Assembly (NCBI GenBank): GCA_009773555.1
Contig: WSXZ01000054.1
Location: 1-35,887 of the forward strand
Source of the DNA: Methylocystaceae bacterium
GTDB taxonomy: Bacteria; Pseudomonadota; Alphaproteobacteria; Rhizobiales; Beijerinckiaceae
Reading direction: 5' to 3'
DNA length: 35,887 nt
A program made the translations under genes and the position numbers. Below the pieces are notes generated by a model. The model was not told the origin of the DNA. It did not search any database and worked only from the letters and a program-made list of their open reading frames with translations. Below are positions 1-9,718 of the stretch, piece after piece. Position 1 is the stretch's first letter, and each line of letters opens with the position of its first letter.

Positions 1-98
1 CAGCGTTTCTCATCAGCAAGCCGTACAAGGTCGATACGGTCAAGGCGACGATCAGCCAGGCGCTGTTCTTCGAGCGCAAGGCGTCTCGCGCGGCCTAG
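1..98 (+). CDS. Response regulator receiver domain, C-terminal end (partial)
   Basis: The frame opening at base 3 encodes about 31 residues to a TAG at 96-98, beginning AFLISKPYKVDTVKATI and ending SRAA. The F-L-x-x-KP-Y signature followed by an amphipathic helix is the beta5-alpha5 end of a CheY-like receiver, where the Lys contacts the phosphoryl group. Most of the gene lies outside the window. The protein ends about 14 residues after the final helix, so it is either a single-domain regulator or one with its receiver last. The partner kinase cannot be identified. Confidence 0.7.
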   Translation, partial: AFLISKPYKVDTVKATISQALFFERKASRAA

Positions 99-389
99 CC
101 CATCTGCGCCGATGACATTCCGGTAAACCTCTCCCTGCATCCATTGGCGCCTCAGATCGCCTCGCATTTGACGCGATGACGCCCTGCGAACGGTGGCGGG
201 CGCAAGCCGCAAGCTGCGTAGCGCTTGTTCGACGACGCCGCGCTGTGTTGTTTGGCGCAAGGCGTTCGCGGCGCATGTATCCTCAACTGTGCCCAACGAT
301 CCATATATCGGGTTTCCCAAAGGACTTATCGTTTGCTCTGCGTCGATGAGCAAACGCGACATTGCATTTACCCTTTGGGAGGATCAGAT
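99..389. other. Non-coding gap before the repeat-protein gene
   Basis: No convincing coding frame or RNA gene was seen in these 291 bases. The 3' part is less GC-rich than the surroundings and probably holds the promoter of the glycine-zipper gene. The only clear signal is the ribosome binding site GGAGG at 378-382. Confidence 0.4.
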
Positions 390-1811
390 ATGCAAATGGC
401 TTACAACGGAGCAACGCCATCGGTCGCGCCGATGGGCGTGACCATGGATCAGATGTTTGCGCCGCAGGGCTTTATCGGCGGCGCGCTCGGCAGCGCGCTG
501 GGCGGATTAGGCGGCGGCGCGATTGGCCGCGCCTTCGGCAACCAGAATCTCGGTCGGCAGATCGGCAACGTCGCGGGCGGCGTGCTCGGCGGACTGCTGC
601 CGTTTGAGGCCGGCCCGCAGGCCTACGCCGGGACCTATTACGTCGCGCAAACGGCTGCACCCGGCTTTGCGCCTCAGGGGATCGTCGGCGACGCGCTCGG
701 CGCCATCGGGGCGCCGCTCGGCGGCTTCATCGGCGGCCGTTTCGGCAATGCCGGACTTGGCCAGACGATCGGCGGCACTGTGGGCGGTCTCGCCCAGCGC
801 TTCCTGCCGTTCGAAGCCGGCCCGCAGCAGCAGCCTGTCTATTATTACGCGCCGCAGTCGGCGGATCCGTCCTTTGCGCCGCAGGGCTTCATCGGCGATG
901 CGCTCGGCGCGGTCGGGGGCCGGGTTGGCAACTGGATCGGCGGACGCTTCGGCAACGCCGGCGCTGGTCAGACGGTTGGCAATGTGGTGGGCGGGCTCGC
1001 CCAGCGCTTCCTGCCGTTCGATGCCGGCCCGCAGCCCTACGCTGGGACCTATTACGTCCCGCAAACGGCTGCGCCCGGATTCGCGCCTCAGGGGATCGTC
1101 GGCGACGCGCTCGGCGCGATCGGCGCGCCGCTTGGCGGATTCATCGGCGGCCGTTTCGGCAATGCCGGACTTGGCCAGACGATCGGCGGCACGGTGGGCG
1201 GTCTTGCCCAGCGCTTCCTGCCGTTCGAAGCCGCGCCCGGATTTGCGCCGCAGGGGATCGTCGGCGACGCGCTCGGCGCGATCGGCGCGCCGCTTGGCGG
1301 ATTCATCGGCGGCCGCTTCGGCAATGCGGGACTCGGTCAGACGATCGGCGGCACGGTGGGCGGTCTCGCTCAGCGCTTCCTGCCGTTCGAGGCGGAGCCG
1401 GTTTTCGTTCCGCAGGGCTTCATCGGCGATGCGCTCGGCGCGGTCGGGGGCCGGGTTGGCAACTGGATCGGCGGACGCTTCGGCAACGCCGGCGCCGGCC
1501 AGACGGTTGGCAATGTGGTGGGCGGACTTGCCCAGCGCTTCCTGCCGTTCGAAGCTGGCCCACAGGCTGGAACGTATTATGTCCCCCAGGCGGCTGCGCC
1601 TGTGTTTGCGCCGCAGGGGATCGTCGGCGACGCGCTTGGCGCGATCGGCGCGCCGCTTGGCGGCTTCATTGGCGGGCGCTTCGGCAACGCCGGACTCGGT
1701 CAGACGATCGGCGGCACGGTGGGCGGTCTCGCTCAGCGCTTCCTGCCCTTCGACGCCGCGCCGCAGCCCGTCTACTACGTGCCGCAGATGCAGGCGCCGA
1801 TGTACGGCTGA
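390..1811 (+). CDS. Glycine-zipper tandem-repeat protein, seven units
   Basis: A 473-residue protein of unknown function. The start at 390 is chosen because GGAGG lies 7 bases upstream; the frame is open further 5' but that stretch has no repeat character. After a short leader (MQMAYNGATPSVAPMGVTMD) come seven units. Each opens with FAPQG(F/I)(I/V)G, continues through GxxxG/GxxG zipper helices (GGFIGGRFGNAG, GGTVGGLAQRF) and closes with LPF(E/D)A. Most units are joined by a Pro/Gln/Tyr linker such as GPQ..TYYVPQTA. There is no N-terminal signal peptide and no cysteine. Glycine zippers are known in membrane-inserting or self-assembling peptides, including the Caulobacter Cdz toxins, but no homology to these is claimed. 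It lies 104 bases upstream of the propeptide-like gene and in the same direction as the subtilase. Inference: a polyprotein or matrix substrate of that protease. It could instead be a structural surface protein. Confidence 0.85.
   Translation: MQMAYNGATPSVAPMGVTMDQMFAPQGFIGGALGSALGGLGGGAIGRAFGNQNLGRQIGNVAGGVLGGLLPFEAGPQAYAGTYYVAQTAAPGFAPQGIVGDALGAIGAPLGGFIGGRFGNAGLGQTIGGTVGGLAQRFLPFEAGPQQQPVYYYAPQSADPSFAPQGFIGDALGAVGGRVGNWIGGRFGNAGAGQTVGNVVGGLAQRFLPFDAGPQPYAGTYYVPQTAAPGFAPQGIVGDALGAIGAPLGGFIGGRFGNAGLGQTIGGTVGGLAQRFLPFEAAPGFAPQGIVGDALGAIGAPLGGFIGGRFGNAGLGQTIGGTVGGLAQRFLPFEAEPVFVPQGFIGDALGAVGGRVGNWIGGRFGNAGAGQTVGNVVGGLAQRFLPFEAGPQAGTYYVPQAAAPVFAPQGIVGDALGAIGAPLGGFIGGRFGNAGLGQTIGGTVGGLAQRFLPFDAAPQPVYYVPQMQAPMYG
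456..1811 (+). repeat. Seven in-frame tandem repeats (162-210 bp)
   Basis: Counting from the FAPQG/FVPQG codon, units begin at 456, 666, 873, 1080, 1242, 1404 and 1605. The periods are 210, 207, 207, 162, 162 and 201 bp. Units 4 and 5 are the 162-bp form, which lacks the GPQ...YYVPQ linker. Two sequence classes occur: GDALGAIGAPLGGFIGG (units 2, 4, 5, 7) and GDALGAVGGRVGNWIGG (units 3, 6), with unit 1 divergent. Nucleotide identity between units of one class is very high, as expected from recent duplication or gene conversion. Confidence 0.9.
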
Positions 1812-1863
1812 CGTCTGAGCGACGCAATCGACGCGACGCGTGAAGGATGATCTGCTGCCGCTT

Positions 1864-1885
1864 CCGGGCCAATTCTTTGGCCCGG
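1864..1885 (+). other. Perfect 9-bp hairpin between the repeat gene and the propeptide-like gene
   Basis: CCGGGCCAA pairs with TTGGCCCGG around a TTCT loop. It lies 52 bases after the repeat-protein stop and 30 bases before the next ATG. No T-run follows, so it is not a classic intrinsic terminator. It could act as an mRNA-stabilising or processing element that lets the repeat protein be made in excess over the protease, or as a Rho-linked attenuator. Role inferred. Confidence 0.5.
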
Positions 1886-1915
1886 GAGCCCTCAAGAGAT
1901 CAGGATCGCGAAATC

Positions 1916-2161
1916 ATGAGCGCAACGAACGGCATCGATCAATTTCTGGTGGCGCCCCGCAACGCGGCGAGCACAGGGGATTTGGCCGCTTTCGAACAGG
2001 CGATGCAGTCTGTTCCCGGCGCCGCAATTCTTCAGCGCGCCGGCAAGGCCGGTCAACCAAGGCTGGTCGTCGCTTTGCCTGCGGCGAGCGCAAGTCACTT
2101 GCGCGAACAATTTGGCGCGACCCTGATCATCGAACCAAACGCTCCGCTGAAACAATTTTAG
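1916..2161 (+). CDS. Stand-alone subtilase-propeptide-like protein (inhibitor I9-like)
   Basis: An 81-residue protein without signal peptide. It aligns end to end with residues 39 to about 125 of the subtilase encoded next door. IDQFLVAPRN matches TERFMIASRR. A central stretch with AILQRAGKAG matches IVRRIQPRG. QPRLVVALPAASASHL...TLIIEPNAPL matches SPEILVAEMDPARGAAL...VIVERDAFL. The pattern of two beta-hairpins with intervening helices, ending in a strand and an extended tail, is that of S8 propeptides and I9-type inhibitors, which act as folding chaperones and as competitive inhibitors of subtilisins. Stand-alone I9 inhibitors such as yeast IB2 are known. Inference: a trans-acting inhibitor or foldase for the neighbouring protease, descended by duplication of its prodomain. 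It sits 61 bases before the protease gene. The Shine-Dalgarno sequence is weak. Confidence 0.75.
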   Translation: MSATNGIDQFLVAPRNAASTGDLAAFEQAMQSVPGAAILQRAGKAGQPRLVVALPAASASHLREQFGATLIIEPNAPLKQF

Positions 2162-2222
2162 CGCCGGCGCGCGTCCTTCATGGCGATGCGCAGGCTGGCC
2201 CGAATTTATTAGGAGAGTCGAC

Positions 2223-4031
2223 ATGGCTGGTCCCGACAATAGTACTCCTGCGCCGAATGGCCACAACCCAGAGCCGCCCACGCCGTCAGCAAACGGCGCC
2301 GAAGCGCGGGTCGAGCCGATGGCGATAGCGCCCACCGAGCGCTTCATGATCGCCTCGCGGCGCGTGCCCGGATTCGCCCCTGCTTCGGCCATGGATCTCG
2401 CCAATGCGCTCCCCGACGTAAAGATTGTGCGGCGGATTCAGCCGCGCGGGCTCACCGCCTTTTCTGCGGGCGGCTCCTCTTCGCAGTCGCCGGAAATTCT
2501 CGTCGCCGAGATGGACCCTGCGCGCGGCGCAGCGCTGCAGGCGTCGGCGCCGCCCAACGTCATTGTGGAGCGCGACGCCTTTCTTCGCGCGTCGGACGAC
2601 TTCCGTCCTTTCGACTTCAACGGAGCCATGCCGATTGCGGCGGGCGTCGGAGTCGACGTGCAGCTGCGCGTCGTCGGCGCTGGCGGCAAGCCGCTGCCCA
2701 AGGCCACCGTCTATGTCTATGGCCTCGGCTTTCCGGGCCAAGGCGTCACCAATGAGCGCGGCGAAGTCGTCGTGACCGTGTTCGGCGGTCCGATCGAGAC
2801 CATCCAGGCGATCTACGTCAAACCGGCCGCCGATCACTGGGACCGTATGCTGCGCGCGCCGGCGCTTCAGGCCGGCGCCATGAACACGGTGCAATTGCGT
2901 CCGCTGGCCGAACGCTTCAACGGCTTTCCCCAAAACGGGATGGTCGGCTGGGGTCAGCGCCTCATGAAGCTCGACCGGCTCGATCCTTCCTTCACCGGCG
3001 CTGGCGTCAAGATCGGCATCATCGATTCAGGTTGCGACAGCGCGCACCCGCAGCTGCGCCACGTGACGCGGGGCGCCGATCTCACCAATGGCGGCGACAA
3101 GACGAGTTGGTCGAACGATCAGATCGGCCATGGAACGCATTGCGCCGGAATCATCACCGCCGCCTCTGAAAGCGTCGCCGGCATTCGCGGCTTTGCGCCA
3201 AGGGCGGAAGTTCACGCGTTGAAAGTATTTCCCGGCGGACGGTTCAGCGATCTCATCGACGCGCTCGACGAATGCATCGAACGGCAGCTCGACGTCGTCA
3301 ATATGAGCCTTGGCAGCGGCGATCCTTCCGAACTCGTCGCCCAGAAAATCTCCGAAGCGCGCCAGAGCGGCGTCGCCTGCATCGTCGCCGCCGGAAATTC
3401 CAGCGGACCCGTGCAATTTCCCGGCATGCTGCCGACGGTGCTGACGGTCGCCGCGATGGGCAAACTCGACGAGTTTCCTTCTGACAGCTACCATGCTCAG
3501 ACCGTCGTTCCGCAACTTGTCGCGGGGACGATGTTCTCGCCGAAATTCACGTGCTTTGGGCCGCAGATCACCGTCGCGGCGCCTGGCGTCGCAATTGTCT
3601 CCACCGTGCCTGGCGGGGGTTATGCGGCGTGGGACGGCACCTCGATGGCGACGCCTCACGTCACCGGCATGGCGGCGCTGCTTCTCGCGCACCATCCGCT
3701 CCTCGCTGGGGCGCGGACGGCGCGCAACGAGCAACGCGTCGCGCAACTCTTCTCGCTGTTGGCCGCGTCGGGCGTCCGCTATTTCGGCGACGCTACGCGC
3801 GAAGGCGTCGGCGCGCCGGATTTCGAGCGCACGCCCGGTCTCGCCGCGGCTCAGCCTTTGGGCGCGGCTGCGCCGGCGAACGCGGGGCTGGCGCCCGCGG
3901 GAGCGATGATCGACGGATTTGCTCCGCTGAGCGCGCCAGCGCCGTGGGCCATCGATCCCGCGATGATGCAAAGGGTCAATCCGGCGATCATTCAGCGCAT
4001 GATGCAGCTGCGGGCAGCGGGACTTATTTAG
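2223..4031 (+). CDS. Subtilisin-like serine protease (S8) with propeptide-like and Ig-like N-terminal domains
   Basis: A 602-residue protease, start set by AGGAGAG just upstream. The catalytic triad is complete: D268 in IGIIDSG, H303 in GHGTHCAGI and S474 in GTSMATPHVTG, with oxyanion-hole N392 in VAAGNSSG. Before the catalytic domain there is a Pro/Ala-rich start (1-37), a propeptide-like domain (about 38-125) and a beta-sandwich of carboxypeptidase-regulatory or Ig type (about 138-200; GKPLPKATVYVYG...NERGEVVVTV). The catalytic domain spans about 255-500. A low-complexity Ala/Pro tail ends with a repeated PAMMQR / PAIIQRMMQL helix. No signal peptide is visible, so the enzyme is cytoplasmic or leaves by a non-Sec route. 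It follows the repeat protein and the propeptide-like protein in one orientation and probably forms an operon with them. Inference: it processes the repeat protein. A generic protease role remains possible. Confidence 0.92.
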   Translation: MAGPDNSTPAPNGHNPEPPTPSANGAEARVEPMAIAPTERFMIASRRVPGFAPASAMDLANALPDVKIVRRIQPRGLTAFSAGGSSSQSPEILVAEMDPARGAALQASAPPNVIVERDAFLRASDDFRPFDFNGAMPIAAGVGVDVQLRVVGAGGKPLPKATVYVYGLGFPGQGVTNERGEVVVTVFGGPIETIQAIYVKPAADHWDRMLRAPALQAGAMNTVQLRPLAERFNGFPQNGMVGWGQRLMKLDRLDPSFTGAGVKIGIIDSGCDSAHPQLRHVTRGADLTNGGDKTSWSNDQIGHGTHCAGIITAASESVAGIRGFAPRAEVHALKVFPGGRFSDLIDALDECIERQLDVVNMSLGSGDPSELVAQKISEARQSGVACIVAAGNSSGPVQFPGMLPTVLTVAAMGKLDEFPSDSYHAQTVVPQLVAGTMFSPKFTCFGPQITVAAPGVAIVSTVPGGGYAAWDGTSMATPHVTGMAALLLAHHPLLAGARTARNEQRVAQLFSLLAASGVRYFGDATREGVGAPDFERTPGLAAAQPLGAAAPANAGLAPAGAMIDGFAPLSAPAPWAIDPAMMQRVNPAIIQRMMQLRAAGLI

Positions 4032-4797
4032 TCGCAAGCACGAGCGGTCCCCGATCGATCGGCGAATGAAGCGCTTCTCCGTCATGAGCGGGGGAGCGCT
4101 TTCGCATCGAGTGCGCCGCTTCGCCACGGCCGCGCACTTGCAGCTTCTGCAGAACATTGTGCACGTGATTCTTCACCGTGCCGAGCTCGATGCGGAGCCG
4201 ACGGGCGATCTCCTTATTGGACAGCCCGCGTTCGATCAGTTCAAGTATTTCCCGCTCGCGCGCGGTAAGCGCGTCCTTTGCGTCCGCGCTGGACGAGAGC
4301 GACTCCTTGCCGATAGGCCGACGCTCCTCGACGGGATGAATCGCGGGCGCCGCCGTCAATCGCGCGAGCAGTTCGACAACGTCGTCAATCGACCCCTCGC
4401 GAGGAATGACGCCGACGATCGATGGACAGGCGGCCGCCAGTGCTGGGCTAGCCGATGCCGGAGCGCCGATGGCGACGATTCGCAAATCGGGATGCTGCGC
4501 GGCGAGACCTTGCGCGATCGCAAGGCCTTCCAACTCGCCGACGTCGAGCAGAGCAATATCGGGCTCCAAATCAGCCGCTACCGCCAGCGCGGCGTCACAC
4601 TCGACGACGCCGACAACGCACATTCCCTGATGCTGCCCAAGACGCAAGCCAAGCGCCTCGCTGAACAGGCGCATGTCGCTAACGATCAAGATGCGCGCGT
4701 TTCGCGGCGGATTTGCCGATGTAGGAACAAACGCGCTCTGCGCTGACAGACCGGTGTCCAGGGCGGAATCGTCTCGGAAGGCCGCAAACCGAGGCAT
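4024..4797 (-). CDS. LuxR/NarL-type response regulator
   Basis: A 257-residue protein with an AGGAG ribosome site 7 bases before its ATG. After a 33-residue extension, a receiver domain (about 35-150) carries D41 and the likely phospho-acceptor D85 in DIALLDVGELEG. The acidic pair usual at the first strand is reduced to SDM, and the invariant Lys near the end appears as Arg in VIPREGS, so phosphorylation may be altered or absent. A GerE/LuxR helix-turn-helix follows (about 176-230): LTAREREILELIERGLSNKE then TVKNHVHNVLQKLQV. The 3' end overlaps the subtilase gene by 8 bases, tail to tail. No kinase gene is adjacent. The tight arrangement suggests, without proving, that it controls the protease/repeat cassette. 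Confidence 0.88.
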   Translation of the reverse strand: MPRFAAFRDDSALDTGLSAQSAFVPTSANPPRNARILIVSDMRLFSEALGLRLGQHQGMCVVGVVECDAALAVAADLEPDIALLDVGELEGLAIAQGLAAQHPDLRIVAIGAPASASPALAAACPSIVGVIPREGSIDDVVELLARLTAAPAIHPVEERRPIGKESLSSSADAKDALTAREREILELIERGLSNKEIARRLRIELGTVKNHVHNVLQKLQVRGRGEAAHSMRKRSPAHDGEALHSPIDRGPLVLATK

Positions 4798-7300: not shown

Positions 7301-9136
7301 TCAGTCCAGTTCGAACTTTTCTTTATAATCGTGCTTGAGCGATGCGTTCTGATCGTCTTTGCGCAGATAGCAGTCGCCGATCACCAGCGTGTCCATCTCC
7401 GTGCCCATGAAGCAGCCGAAGGCGTCCTCTGGGGTGCAGACGATGGGTTCGCCGCGCACATTGAAGCTCGTATTGACGAGAACGGGACAGGCGGTCAATC
7501 GCTTGAACGCCGAAAGCAGCGCGTGATAGCGCGGATTCGTCTCCTGATGCACGGTCTGAATCCGCGCGGAATAGTCGACGTGGGTCACGGCCGGAATGGC
7601 GCTGCGCGGAACATTGAGCTTGTCGATGCCAAACAGCGCCTGCTGCTCGGCCGTCATTGCGTGACGATGTTTTGCGGCGACGTCGGCGACGAGCAGCATG
7701 TAAGGGGAGTCGCCTTCGAGCTCGAACCAGTCGGCGACATCCTCACGCAACACCGACGGCGCGAAGGGCCGAAACGATTCGCGATATTTGATTTTGAGAT
7801 TGAGCGTTTTCTGCATGGCGTCGGAACGCGGATCGCCTAGAATCGACCGTCCGCCAAGAGCTCGAGGCCCGAATTCCATTCGGCCTTGAAACCAACCGAC
7901 CGCTTTCTCGTCGGCAAGGTCCCGCGCCGCCGCTTCGATAAGTTCGCCTTCCGCCATCGGCTCGAATCTGGCGCCAATGGCATGCAGCCGGCGCTCGATC
8001 TCGGCTTGCGGGAACGAAGGACCGAGATAGGAGCCGCGCATGGCGTCGCCGCCGCCGTTGAGGCTTCGGGGATTTTTTTTGTAGTGATAGTAGCCGGCGA
8101 GCGCCGCGCCGAGCGCGCCGCCAGCGTCGCCGGCCGCCGGCTGAATCCAAATCTGGTCAAAGCTGCCGTCGCGCAGCAGTTTTCCATTCGCGACGCAATT
8201 CAGCGCCACGCCGCCGGCGAGACAAAGATTGCGTGCGCCGGTCTCTTTGGCGAGCGCGCGAGTAAGCCGAAGGACGATCTCCTCGGTGACCGCTTGTATC
8301 GAGGCGGCGATATCCATGTGCCGCTGCGTCAGGAGTTCCTCCGGCTTGCGCGCCGGGCCACCGAAAAGTTCGTCGAACTTGGCGTTGGTCATCCGCAATC
8401 CGGTGCAATAGTCGAAATACGACTGATCGAGCCGAAAGGTGCCGTCCGGCTTCAGGTCGATCAAATTGTCCAGGATCAAATCGGCGTATTTCGGCGCGCC
8501 ATAGGGGGCAAGGCCCATCAGCTTGTATTCGCCGGAGTTCACCTTGAACCCGGTGTAATATGTGAAGGCCGAATACAGCAGGCCGAGCGAATGCGGGAAG
8601 CGCAATTCGCGCTGCATGGTCAGTTGATTGTCACTGCCGAAAGCGACCGACGTCGTCGCCCACTCGCCGACCCCATCCATCGTCAGAACGATCGCGTCCT
8701 TGAACGGAGAGGGGTAGAAGGCGCTGGCGGCGTGGCTGAAGTGATGCTCGGCGAACAGCAGCCTTTTCGACCAGTCGACATCCGCCGAATAGGCCTTCAT
8801 CTCTTTCAACAGCAGCGACTTTTGAAAGAGCTTTTCGCGCAGCCACAGAGGCAGCGACATTTTGAACGACTGGAATCCACGCGGCGCAAAGGCGATATAG
8901 GTTTCCAGCAGCCGCTCGAATTTGATGAACGGCTTGTCGTAGAAGGCGACGAAATCTATGTCCTGAGGCGTGACGCCAGCGGCCTCAAGACAATAGTCGA
9001 TCGCGTGACGCGGAAAGCGCGAGTCGTGCTTTTTGCGCGAGAATCGCTCTTCCTGAGCGGCGGCGATGATTTCGCCATCCTCCACCACGGCGGCGGCGCT
9101 GTCGTGGTAGAAGGCGGAAATGCCAAGTATCCGCAT
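7301..9136 (-). CDS. NodU/CmcH-family carbamoyltransferase
   Basis: A 611-residue enzyme of full family length. It transfers a carbamoyl group from carbamoyl phosphate, through carbamoyl-adenylate, to a hydroxyl of a sugar or natural product. The N-terminal part is an ASKHA/Kae1-like domain: ILGISAFYHDSAAA at the start, HHFSHAASAF with metal-binding His, LTMDGVGEWATTS, and GGVALNCVANGK in the nucleotide fold. The C-terminal YrdC-like-associated domain contains GRMEFGPRALGGRSILGDPR. It is last in a leftward set after the DUF5989 gene (6 bases between) and the sxtJ-like gene. That neighbourhood recurs in polysaccharide and natural-product clusters. The acceptor cannot be deduced; a surface glycan is plausible given the SGNH protein upstream. 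Confidence 0.93.
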   Translation of the reverse strand: MRILGISAFYHDSAAAVVEDGEIIAAAQEERFSRKKHDSRFPRHAIDYCLEAAGVTPQDIDFVAFYDKPFIKFERLLETYIAFAPRGFQSFKMSLPLWLREKLFQKSLLLKEMKAYSADVDWSKRLLFAEHHFSHAASAFYPSPFKDAIVLTMDGVGEWATTSVAFGSDNQLTMQRELRFPHSLGLLYSAFTYYTGFKVNSGEYKLMGLAPYGAPKYADLILDNLIDLKPDGTFRLDQSYFDYCTGLRMTNAKFDELFGGPARKPEELLTQRHMDIAASIQAVTEEIVLRLTRALAKETGARNLCLAGGVALNCVANGKLLRDGSFDQIWIQPAAGDAGGALGAALAGYYHYKKNPRSLNGGGDAMRGSYLGPSFPQAEIERRLHAIGARFEPMAEGELIEAAARDLADEKAVGWFQGRMEFGPRALGGRSILGDPRSDAMQKTLNLKIKYRESFRPFAPSVLREDVADWFELEGDSPYMLLVADVAAKHRHAMTAEQQALFGIDKLNVPRSAIPAVTHVDYSARIQTVHQETNPRYHALLSAFKRLTACPVLVNTSFNVRGEPIVCTPEDAFGCFMGTEMDTLVIGDCYLRKDDQNASLKHDYKEKFELD

Positions 9137-9142
9137 CGCGCT

Positions 9143-9289
9143 TTAAAACAGCGTATAGATGAACGGAGCGACCGCGGTGCCCTGCAAAACGATCAGCGCG
9201 CCAATCAGCAGCATGATGACCAGAACCGGCGCCATCCAATATTTCTTACTGGTTTTGAGATAATCCCAAAGTTCGAGCAGGAAACTCAT
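9143..9289 (-). CDS. Small DUF5989-family membrane protein
   Basis: A 48-residue protein starting MSFLLELWDYLKTSKKYWMA and ending FIYTLF. Residues 19-35 form one hydrophobic helix (PVLVIMLLIGALIVLQG). The amphipathic, Lys-containing N-terminus followed by one membrane span and a short aromatic tail is typical of DUF5989, usually found between an SxtJ-like gene and a carbamoyltransferase, as here. The ribosome site GGGAGAG overlaps the region of the sxtJ stop, 12 bases away, and the carbamoyltransferase follows after 6 bases, so translation is probably coupled. Possibly a membrane anchor or accessory for the transferase; function unknown. Confidence 0.85.
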   Translation of the reverse strand: MSFLLELWDYLKTSKKYWMAPVLVIMLLIGALIVLQGTAVAPFIYTLF

Positions 9290-9301
9290 TTTATCTCTCC
9301 C

Positions 9302-9718
9302 TCAGAATTGCTTGCTCATGTCGCTCGCCCCTTCGGGCGTGTTGCGCATGGTCCAGTAAGAAGTCGCGTTCTTGTCGAATGAAAGTTTGAGCGGATCGGC
9401 GCGGCGCAATCGGAAAATCACCGCGATCGGGAGGATCACCCCAAAGAACAGGACGCCCATGATGATCGGGTTGGTGATTTTGTGCAGCGCCAAGCCCAGC
9501 TGGTGCCAGAGCCGGTTCAGCGGCCGCAGTTTGGCTGGCGCGAGGAACGCCGCTGCGGCGAAACCAAGCGCTGCGGCGAGCCCCCAGAAGTGAGGCGCCT
9601 CGCCGTGCCGAAGCGGCAACATGCTGATGACCGTGATCGCCGCGGCGATCACCAGGCCGAACGATCGATCGGACCCCATGGCGGCGGAACGGTCTCTCGA
9701 ATAGTCCTCATGCGACAT
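9302..9718 (-). CDS. SxtJ-like membrane protein
   Basis: A 138-residue protein with hydrophobic spans at about 20-37, 43-62 and 84-102 and a basic cytoplasmic tail. The LNRLWHQLGLALHKITNPII motif followed by a long hydrophobic helix and the terminal FDKNATSYW segment is characteristic of the SxtJ family, named from the saxitoxin cluster but widespread beside carbamoyltransferases. Biochemical role unknown. It is first of the three tightly linked genes sxtJ, DUF5989 and carbamoyltransferase. A second ATG at codon 14 is possible. Confidence 0.85.
   Translation of the reverse strand: MSHEDYSRDRSAAMGSDRSFGLVIAAAITVISMLPLRHGEAPHFWGLAAALGFAAAAFLAPAKLRPLNRLWHQLGLALHKITNPIIMGVLFFGVILPIAVIFRLRRADPLKLSFDKNATSYWTMRNTPEGASDMSKQF

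Follow-up and report, generated by a model that had tools for sequence, protein, structure and literature searches.

Glycine-zipper repeat, propeptide-like and subtilase genes form a conserved trio in Methylocystis: a candidate proteolytic maturation cassette

In the Methylocystis contig WSXZ01000054.1 (assembly GCA_009773555.1), analyzed over its entire 35,887 nucleotides and referred to here as the window, three genes follow one another on the + strand at positions 390–4031. They encode a glycine-zipper repeat protein of 473 amino acids (aa) in seven units (390..1811), an 81-aa stand-alone propeptide-like protein (1916..2161) and a 602-aa S8 subtilase (2223..4031, assigned by Pfam match and alignments). 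The trio occurs all-or-none in the genomes searched, keeps its order across three lineages (Methylocystis, a second genus from its order, and a single genome outside the class), and may represent a self-contained proteolytic maturation cassette, a reading to which we give a probability of roughly 0.5. An earlier note on this DNA had described three co-directional genes with units of 54–70 aa, and had proposed that the protease cuts the repeat protein while the small protein holds the enzyme inactive; the coordinates and unit lengths are confirmed here, and the overall interpretation is partly supported. Each part of the trio is of a known kind, whereas the combination, together with a substrate-mimicking tail on a bacterial stand-alone propeptide protein, appears to be new. 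No paper on such a bacterial trio was found in a literature search judged by titles and abstract openings, with most subscription journals outside its coverage.

Co-occurrence of the three families in other genomes was one of the tests on which the earlier note had staked its idea, and the idea survived it. Within Methylocystis, the repeat protein was detected in 12 of 37 genomes searched, and the small protein and the full-length protease each in 12 of 39, always in the same 12; three further Methylocystis genomes contain distant subtilases only. The protease is present at 90–98% identity in six named Methylocystis strains and two metagenome bins. In the second genus, a close protease, the small protein and a glycine-zipper unit were found in the same 12 of 117 genomes; a 13th small-protein match (G440) is actually a protease’s own prodomain. 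The unit lies on a different contig in G334 and G367, where the assembly apparently broke within the repeats, and G307 is an additional member of the trio group. Across the class, the small-protein and unit profiles yielded no further clear case in 337 genomes, with weak matches in G507, G564 and G693. In the genome of another class (G1014), detected in a search that used just the protease N-terminus, all three genes were then seen in order, the partner being a Gln-rich protein with two glycine-zipper units. One second-genus genome, G396, carries a protease with 64% identity to that of the window, versus 40% to two compared copies from its own genus, and this protease clusters with Methylocystis in the tree (support 100/100); the tree position and the identities therefore point to transfer of the whole trio into G396.

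The protease partner belongs to a rare S8 architecture, marked by the combination of prodomain and beta domain. A profile of these two domains matched only 4 of 398 genomes of the phylum (the window’s own, G290, G307 and G1014), while with the whole protease as query 150 of the order’s 297 genomes gave S8 matches. The repeat and small-protein families have no Pfam or NCBIfam match of their own, and the all-or-none pattern links them to a single unusual subtilase type.

The repeat protein consists of a 22-aa head followed by units of 70, 69, 69, 54, 54, 67 and 68 aa, which are of two main types, apart from unit 1, which is distinct. In the unit core, 25 of 54 columns are invariant (one extra residue of unit 1 omitted), including eleven glycines, mostly spaced 3–5 residues apart in a GxxxG manner, a PQG at the start and an LPF-x-A-x-P at the end. 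Every unit in the window closes with LPF-[E/D]-A. The LPF codons, after whose Phe the cut is proposed, lie on the + strand at 597..605 in unit 1 and 804..812 in unit 2 (both followed by EAGP), 1011..1019 in unit 3 (DAGP), 1218..1226 in unit 4 (EAAP), 1380..1388 in unit 5 (EAEP), 1542..1550 in unit 6 (EAGP) and 1743..1751 in unit 7 (DAAP). The earlier note had placed the cuts at the Pro/Gln/Tyr linkers; the conserved LPF-[E/D]A at the linker start is a better fit than the Pro/Gln/Tyr stretch itself, which is variable and missing after units 4 and 5.

The same repeat protein occurs in the 12 Methylocystis genomes, with 5–9 LPF-ended units in the eight complete arrays counted. The count omits partial rows, a second copy from one genome and rows read in the wrong frame; six distinct complete arrays hold 5–7 units, two (L062 and L063) hold nine LPF, and the number of LPF motifs equals that of units in the complete Methylocystis arrays counted. 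Between same-type units of the window, the ratio of nonsynonymous to synonymous change (dN/dS, simple counting method) is 0.04–0.18, with differences mainly silent; this, along with retention in 12 genomes, bears out the earlier description of the glycine-zipper units as real rather than chance features. Values were also obtained for the repeat-gene ends (0.03 to 0.22), the small-protein gene (0.07 to 0.33, the top value resulting from very few changes) and the protease gene (0.08–0.12 against four relatives). Selection on the trio is purifying.

The unit end recurs outside Methylocystis. The second genus has, besides one glycine-zipper unit, a 47-aa repeat whose 54 units, from 9 frames in 8 loci, all end in G(V/I)F-[SNDE]-A; these rows are mutually related and do not count as independent events. 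The G396 locus (L139, 1-630) contains a tandem array in which one degenerate unit has a decayed glycine pattern but retains LPFEAAP; the reading frame of this array is cut off by the contig start and covers a minimum of three complete units plus a portion of a fourth. As a rough chance estimate, a shuffled window unit contains F[SEDN]A in 1136 of 20000 trials and [LF]xPF[SEDN]A in 23 of 20000.

Homology between the small protein and the prodomain of the adjacent protease, claimed in the earlier note, was recovered by profile–profile comparison with a score of 49.8 and a probability of 95%. The best of 60 column-shuffled profiles reached 17.7 and the reversed profile 14.6; among 12 windows placed along the protease, only three scored above 12 (29.6, 47.8 and 22.4), each overlapping the prodomain. 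Pairwise BLASTP between the small protein and the protease gave no match. The AlphaFold model of the small protein, with a mean predicted local distance difference test (pLDDT) of 79.9, places strands at residues 7-14, 37-44, 47-55 and 70-74 and helices at 17-31 and 56-66, and it resembles the fold of stand-alone I9 inhibitors, with POIA1 among the fold matches. Both the homology and the predicted fold support the assignment of the small protein as a stand-alone propeptide-like protein.

The C-terminus of the small protein, IIEPNAPLKQF, was compared with the propeptide of subtilisin BPN’, in which we take Tyr77, six residues after Asp71, to be P1. A paper on the malaria protein SUB1-ProM describes Glu69 and Asp71 of that propeptide as capping enzyme helices (PMC6993865). 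In the window small protein the corresponding pair is Glu73/Asn75, and Phe81, the last residue, lies six further on. Phe occupies this +6 position of E-x-[D/N] in 21 of 21 small proteins, being the terminal residue in 14 while the others add G, DAD or DPD; it is likewise found at +6 in four small proteins outside that count (L104, L120, L132 and L136) and in the G1014 protein, which ends in IEPDRPLSLFD. Altogether, Phe is at the P1 place in 26 of 26 small proteins read, whereas none of 30 prodomains belonging to the proteases themselves has it there (Ser in 12, Met in 10, Ala in 7 and Thr in 1); Leu is at P4 in 30 of 30. Because Phe is absent from that place in all 30 prodomains, the small-protein tail differs from them at P1 and resembles the unit end, (F)LPF. 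On these alignments, the LKQF tail may mimic the substrate site and may inhibit the protease in this way.

A propeptide relative need not be an inhibitor. The same paper states that propeptides both assist folding of the catalytic domain and inhibit it (PMC6993865), and the small protein, as a homologue of a propeptide, could act in trans as a prodomain that assists folding of either the protease or the repeat protein, making the trio a folding rather than a switching device. However, each of the six proteases aligned brings a prodomain containing E-x-D, which leaves no obvious need for a second foldase, and the P1 Phe of the small proteins read is lacking from the proteases’ prodomains. We regard a role in folding as improbable, the most improbable of the explanations weighed here.

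The protease matches Pfam Peptidase_S8 with an E-value of 2.5e-42 (145.6 bits against a cut-off of 21.8). The catalytic residues listed in the earlier note are all in canonical motifs, D268 in IDSG, H303 in GHGTHC and S474 in GTSMA, and are joined by the oxyanion residue N392 in AAGN. A head without predicted structure is followed by the prodomain (~38-120), a beta domain (~142-228) and the catalytic Pfam domain (259-495), then by a Pro/Ala-rich linker and the C-terminal tail NPAIIQRMMQLRAAGLI. The borders before the catalytic part come from alignments and a low-confidence AlphaFold model of the whole protease (mean pLDDT 34), whose poor quality is probably due to near-identical rows as the only input. 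As a side observation, the tail is kept within each genus, as NPAIIQRMMQLRAAGLI in Methylocystis and as PAQIRQIMHKVGLL in the other genus. The idea that the protease processes itself at FRPF-DFNG was dropped, the motif being missing from the second genus. Subtilases of the mycosin, QhpE and PatA/PatG types, which are among the NCBIfam matches of the catalytic part, mature or clip a dedicated partner. The protease belongs to none of them, since its NCBIfam scores (121.6 vs 278.75, 74.8 vs 165 and 42.8 vs 421.05, respectively) are far below the family cut-offs. Membership in an anti-phage defence system appears unlikely on scores: in PADLOC, the catalytic domain alone matches generic ‘subtilase’ and IetS models, and the other two proteins are unmatched.

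From these features we infer the following course for a maturation cassette. The repeat gene would yield glycine-zipper modules that associate with one another, joined in a polyprotein. The S8 protease, synthesised together with a prodomain of its own, would recognise (F/L)-x-P-F and cut after the Phe of the ...LPF-[E/D/S]-A that closes each unit, freeing single modules. The 81-aa protein, with its stand-alone propeptide fold, would insert the C-terminal L-K-x-F into S4–S1 as a product-like inhibitor and restrain the protease until removed; the timing of release could then be set by a regulator or stress signal, and the freed modules would then assemble. If this is true, the trio would give bacteria a compact, genetically portable means to make and release self-assembling modules on command, and would provide a natural pair of a subtilase and a substrate-mimicking inhibitor with sequence-readable specificity, in which the P1 Phe of the units should govern cutting and Phe81 of the small protein should govern inhibition.

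Several observations weigh against this course. The Phe is not absolute, as one unit of G436 (L133, second genus) ends in LPL-SAGP and one unit of G1014 in LPL-AAGP, and the G361 array (L131) is split over two separate frames and may be broken or misassembled. The motif common to both repeat types may stem from common descent, their C-terminal halves being alike by eye, and the 12 Methylocystis carriers may form one clade and hence need not be independent. The specificity of the protease is not evident from its own sequence, the prodomain of which lacks a P1 Phe. Many unrelated ferredoxin-like folds match the small-protein model as well as POIA1 does; moreover, the small protein gave no I9 match in Pfam and its profile found no I9 structure by sequence in the PDB, so that it at most works like I9 and is not assigned to the Pfam family by sequence. 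Proteases of a related group (clade 2, described below) keep the triad without a stand-alone small protein, and therefore such a protease can do without one; the argument from a copied tail is limited in that catalytic activity by itself does not predict the presence of the small protein. Finally, an export route for the trio was not found.

The wider group of related proteases bears on the chief competitor of the maturation cassette, namely that the repeat protein is a scaffold and not a substrate. Eight other second-genus genomes carry a clade-2 protease of the same architecture, 40–46% identical to that of G290. In six loci (L140, L141, L142, L144, L145 and L147) the row comprises an M48-like peptidase (identified by Pfam in one locus and by look only in the others), a Gln/Gly/Tyr-rich protein with RQL(S/T)xQDV repeats, a 152–185-aa protein and the S8 protease. 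Three more loci (L148, L161 and L162), on two Streptomyces plasmids, have the protease behind a Gln-rich partner, and these two plasmids are the only plasmid matches of the protease N-terminal part. The Streptomyces relatives have Thr or Ala in place of the catalytic Ser and Asp in place of the oxyanion Asn, and for this reason they are probably dead enzymes, i.e., pseudoproteases. In the 8 clade-2 loci the small-protein profile matched the proteases’ own prodomains only, in the 3 Streptomyces loci it likewise detected no separate protein, and F-[SEDN]-A was not found in the clade-2 (6 read) and Streptomyces (3 read) partners except for one match in L142. All small proteins found thus stand beside partners that carry an LPF-type motif, a pattern expected if the small-protein tail copies that site.

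Under the scaffold explanation, the repeat protein would be a multivalent platform on which LPF docks the protease or competes with the small protein for its cleft, so that many protease molecules held in one assembly are switched on as a whole and the units are not released. The pairing of the probable pseudoproteases with low-complexity partners, which persists without catalysis, agrees with this, as does the variation in unit number between genomes, which would fit a valency. The partners are rich in Gly, Gln or Tyr, and sequences of this kind are prone to self-association. On the other hand, the triad and the oxyanion Asn are retained in all aligned loci of the LPF-motif lineages, the protease there is under purifying selection, and LPF-EA suits the known preference of subtilisin for Pro at P2 and Phe at P1. 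We consider a pure scaffold unlikely, although it is the main rival of the maturation cassette. For the wider group, which has no name, we tentatively suggest, at somewhat less than even odds, that the prodomain–beta–S8 architecture is coupled to self-associating low-complexity proteins, with dead members keeping a binding role; the cassette would be portable between genera, its output tuned by unit copy number, and the inhibitor tail would copy the substrate site rather than the site of the protease’s own propeptide.

A separate observation concerns C-terminal ends in these rows. Repeat proteins of L103, L139 and L184 end in [ST]-[IMVY]-H (GGTMH, GVTYH and GATIH), that of the window does not, and the 152–185-aa protein of the clade-2 row ends in SSIH or SSVH in the same six loci named above. 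An origin of the trio in phages or plasmids was considered and set aside: the repeat protein was unmatched in phages or plasmids, the small protein in plasmids and the unit in viral contigs, and the protease had no phage match over 80% of its length (48 records; the ten listed all fall within the catalytic part). S8 genes with an 80–81-aa neighbour on Rhizobium and Agrobacterium plasmids were likewise rejected, as the small-protein profile does not match this neighbour.

The GxxxG spacing of the invariant glycines also raises the prospect that the units are antagonistic or membrane-active peptides, resembling glycine-zipper bacteriocins, harmless as a polyprotein and released by the protease. 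They would be comparable with the Cdz proteins of Caulobacter, small glycine-zipper toxins of an alphaproteobacterium that aggregate (PMC5380434). Cdz comes with genes for type I secretion, with leader regions and with an immunity protein, and the passages on it mention no subtilase or propeptide-like protein, unlike the trio (PMC5380434). At the trio locus, no type I exporter or membrane-fusion protein had a Pfam match among 26 window proteins (35 kb, not every frame), and neither a Cdz-type leader peptide nor an immunity gene was recognised by eye; of the four genes scanned upstream of the trio in G006, the sole ABC (ATP-binding cassette) transporter is SbmA/BacA-like. The repeat protein has a maximum hydropathy of 1.35 over 19-residue windows, below the usual membrane-helix level and hence lending no support to the membrane-active output suggested in the earlier note, and a net charge of 0, and same-type units are under purifying selection rather than diversification. 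Release of membrane-active peptides is thus less likely than a maturation cassette, and we hold it to be quite improbable.

Other known systems share single traits with the trio. Stand-alone propeptide-like subtilase inhibitors include POIA1, the yeast proteinase B inhibitor, Arabidopsis SPI-1, Plasmodium SUB1-ProM and Toxoplasma MIC5, all of them eukaryotic in the part of the source that treats them (PMC6993865). Compared with these inhibitors (MEROPS I9), the small protein of the trio is bacterial, stands in a row with the protease and a putative substrate, and has a C-terminus that resembles the proposed cut site. A bacterial likeness is Myxococcus PopC, a subtilisin-like protease without a signal peptide that is restrained by PopD and exported in an unusual way (PMC6434023). 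The trio protease is likewise a bacterial subtilisin-like enzyme with a partner protein, whose restraining role is putative; in line with the earlier note, hydropathy revealed no hydrophobic N-terminal segment in any trio protein. PopC differs in having an N-terminal part without recognisable domains and the substrate p25 from csgA, as given in those sections, whereas the trio has a prodomain, a beta domain and an adjacent repeat protein (PMC6434023). By analogy, PopC as described there is a precedent for a subtilase without a signal peptide that can exit the cell, as the trio protease might (PMC6434023).

Regarding regulation, a NarL/FixJ-type response regulator gene lies convergent to the trio (4024..4797, − strand), its 3′ end overlapping that of the protease gene. 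It was found in 12 of 39 Methylocystis genomes, exactly the trio carriers, with identities of 75–96%, more variable than the protease at 91–98%, and is probably dedicated to the trio. A perfect 8-bp inverted repeat, GTTTGCTC-9-GAGCAAAC, without strand assignment, is situated at 331..355, 34 bp 5′ of the repeat gene, and may possibly be an operator or a hairpin; it falls within a block conserved across six aligned upstream regions, its arms being imperfect in some. The ribosome-binding site of the repeat gene is GGGAGG (377-382, + strand).

The contig begins 389 bp upstream of the trio, and at 1..98 (+ strand, translation AFLISKPYKVDTVKATISQALFFERKASRAA*) lies the end of the upstream gene, the receiver portion of a PhyR-type regulator of the general stress response, outside the system. 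In G006, a PhyR gene with PhyR_sigma2, PhyR_sigma-like and Response_reg matches lies upstream of the trio, and judging by place and sequence type the window fragment would belong to the same gene. More broadly, the trio adjoins general stress response genes for PhyR, an ECF (extracytoplasmic function) sigma factor and an HWE histidine kinase, as scanned in G006 (L065 and window 1-98). Control by this PhyR/EcfG stress locus is not claimed: a scan of the six upstream regions for an EcfG-type promoter, with GGAA[ACT]N15-19[CGT]GT[TA] taken as our assumed consensus, gave one match in a single region. In G290 and G307 the upstream gene is instead a SARP-like regulator, with the BTAD domain confirmed in G290. 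The SbmA/BacA-like transporter gene of G006 lies between PhyR and the repeat gene; a similar 606-aa gene precedes the repeat gene in G018, and the window has no counterpart. Farther downstream, the window contains a carbamoyltransferase gene adjoining that of a small protein matching the SxtJ family (7301-9718); the carbamoyltransferase has the same position in four of five related genomes listed, and in the fifth an opposite-strand frame is listed there.

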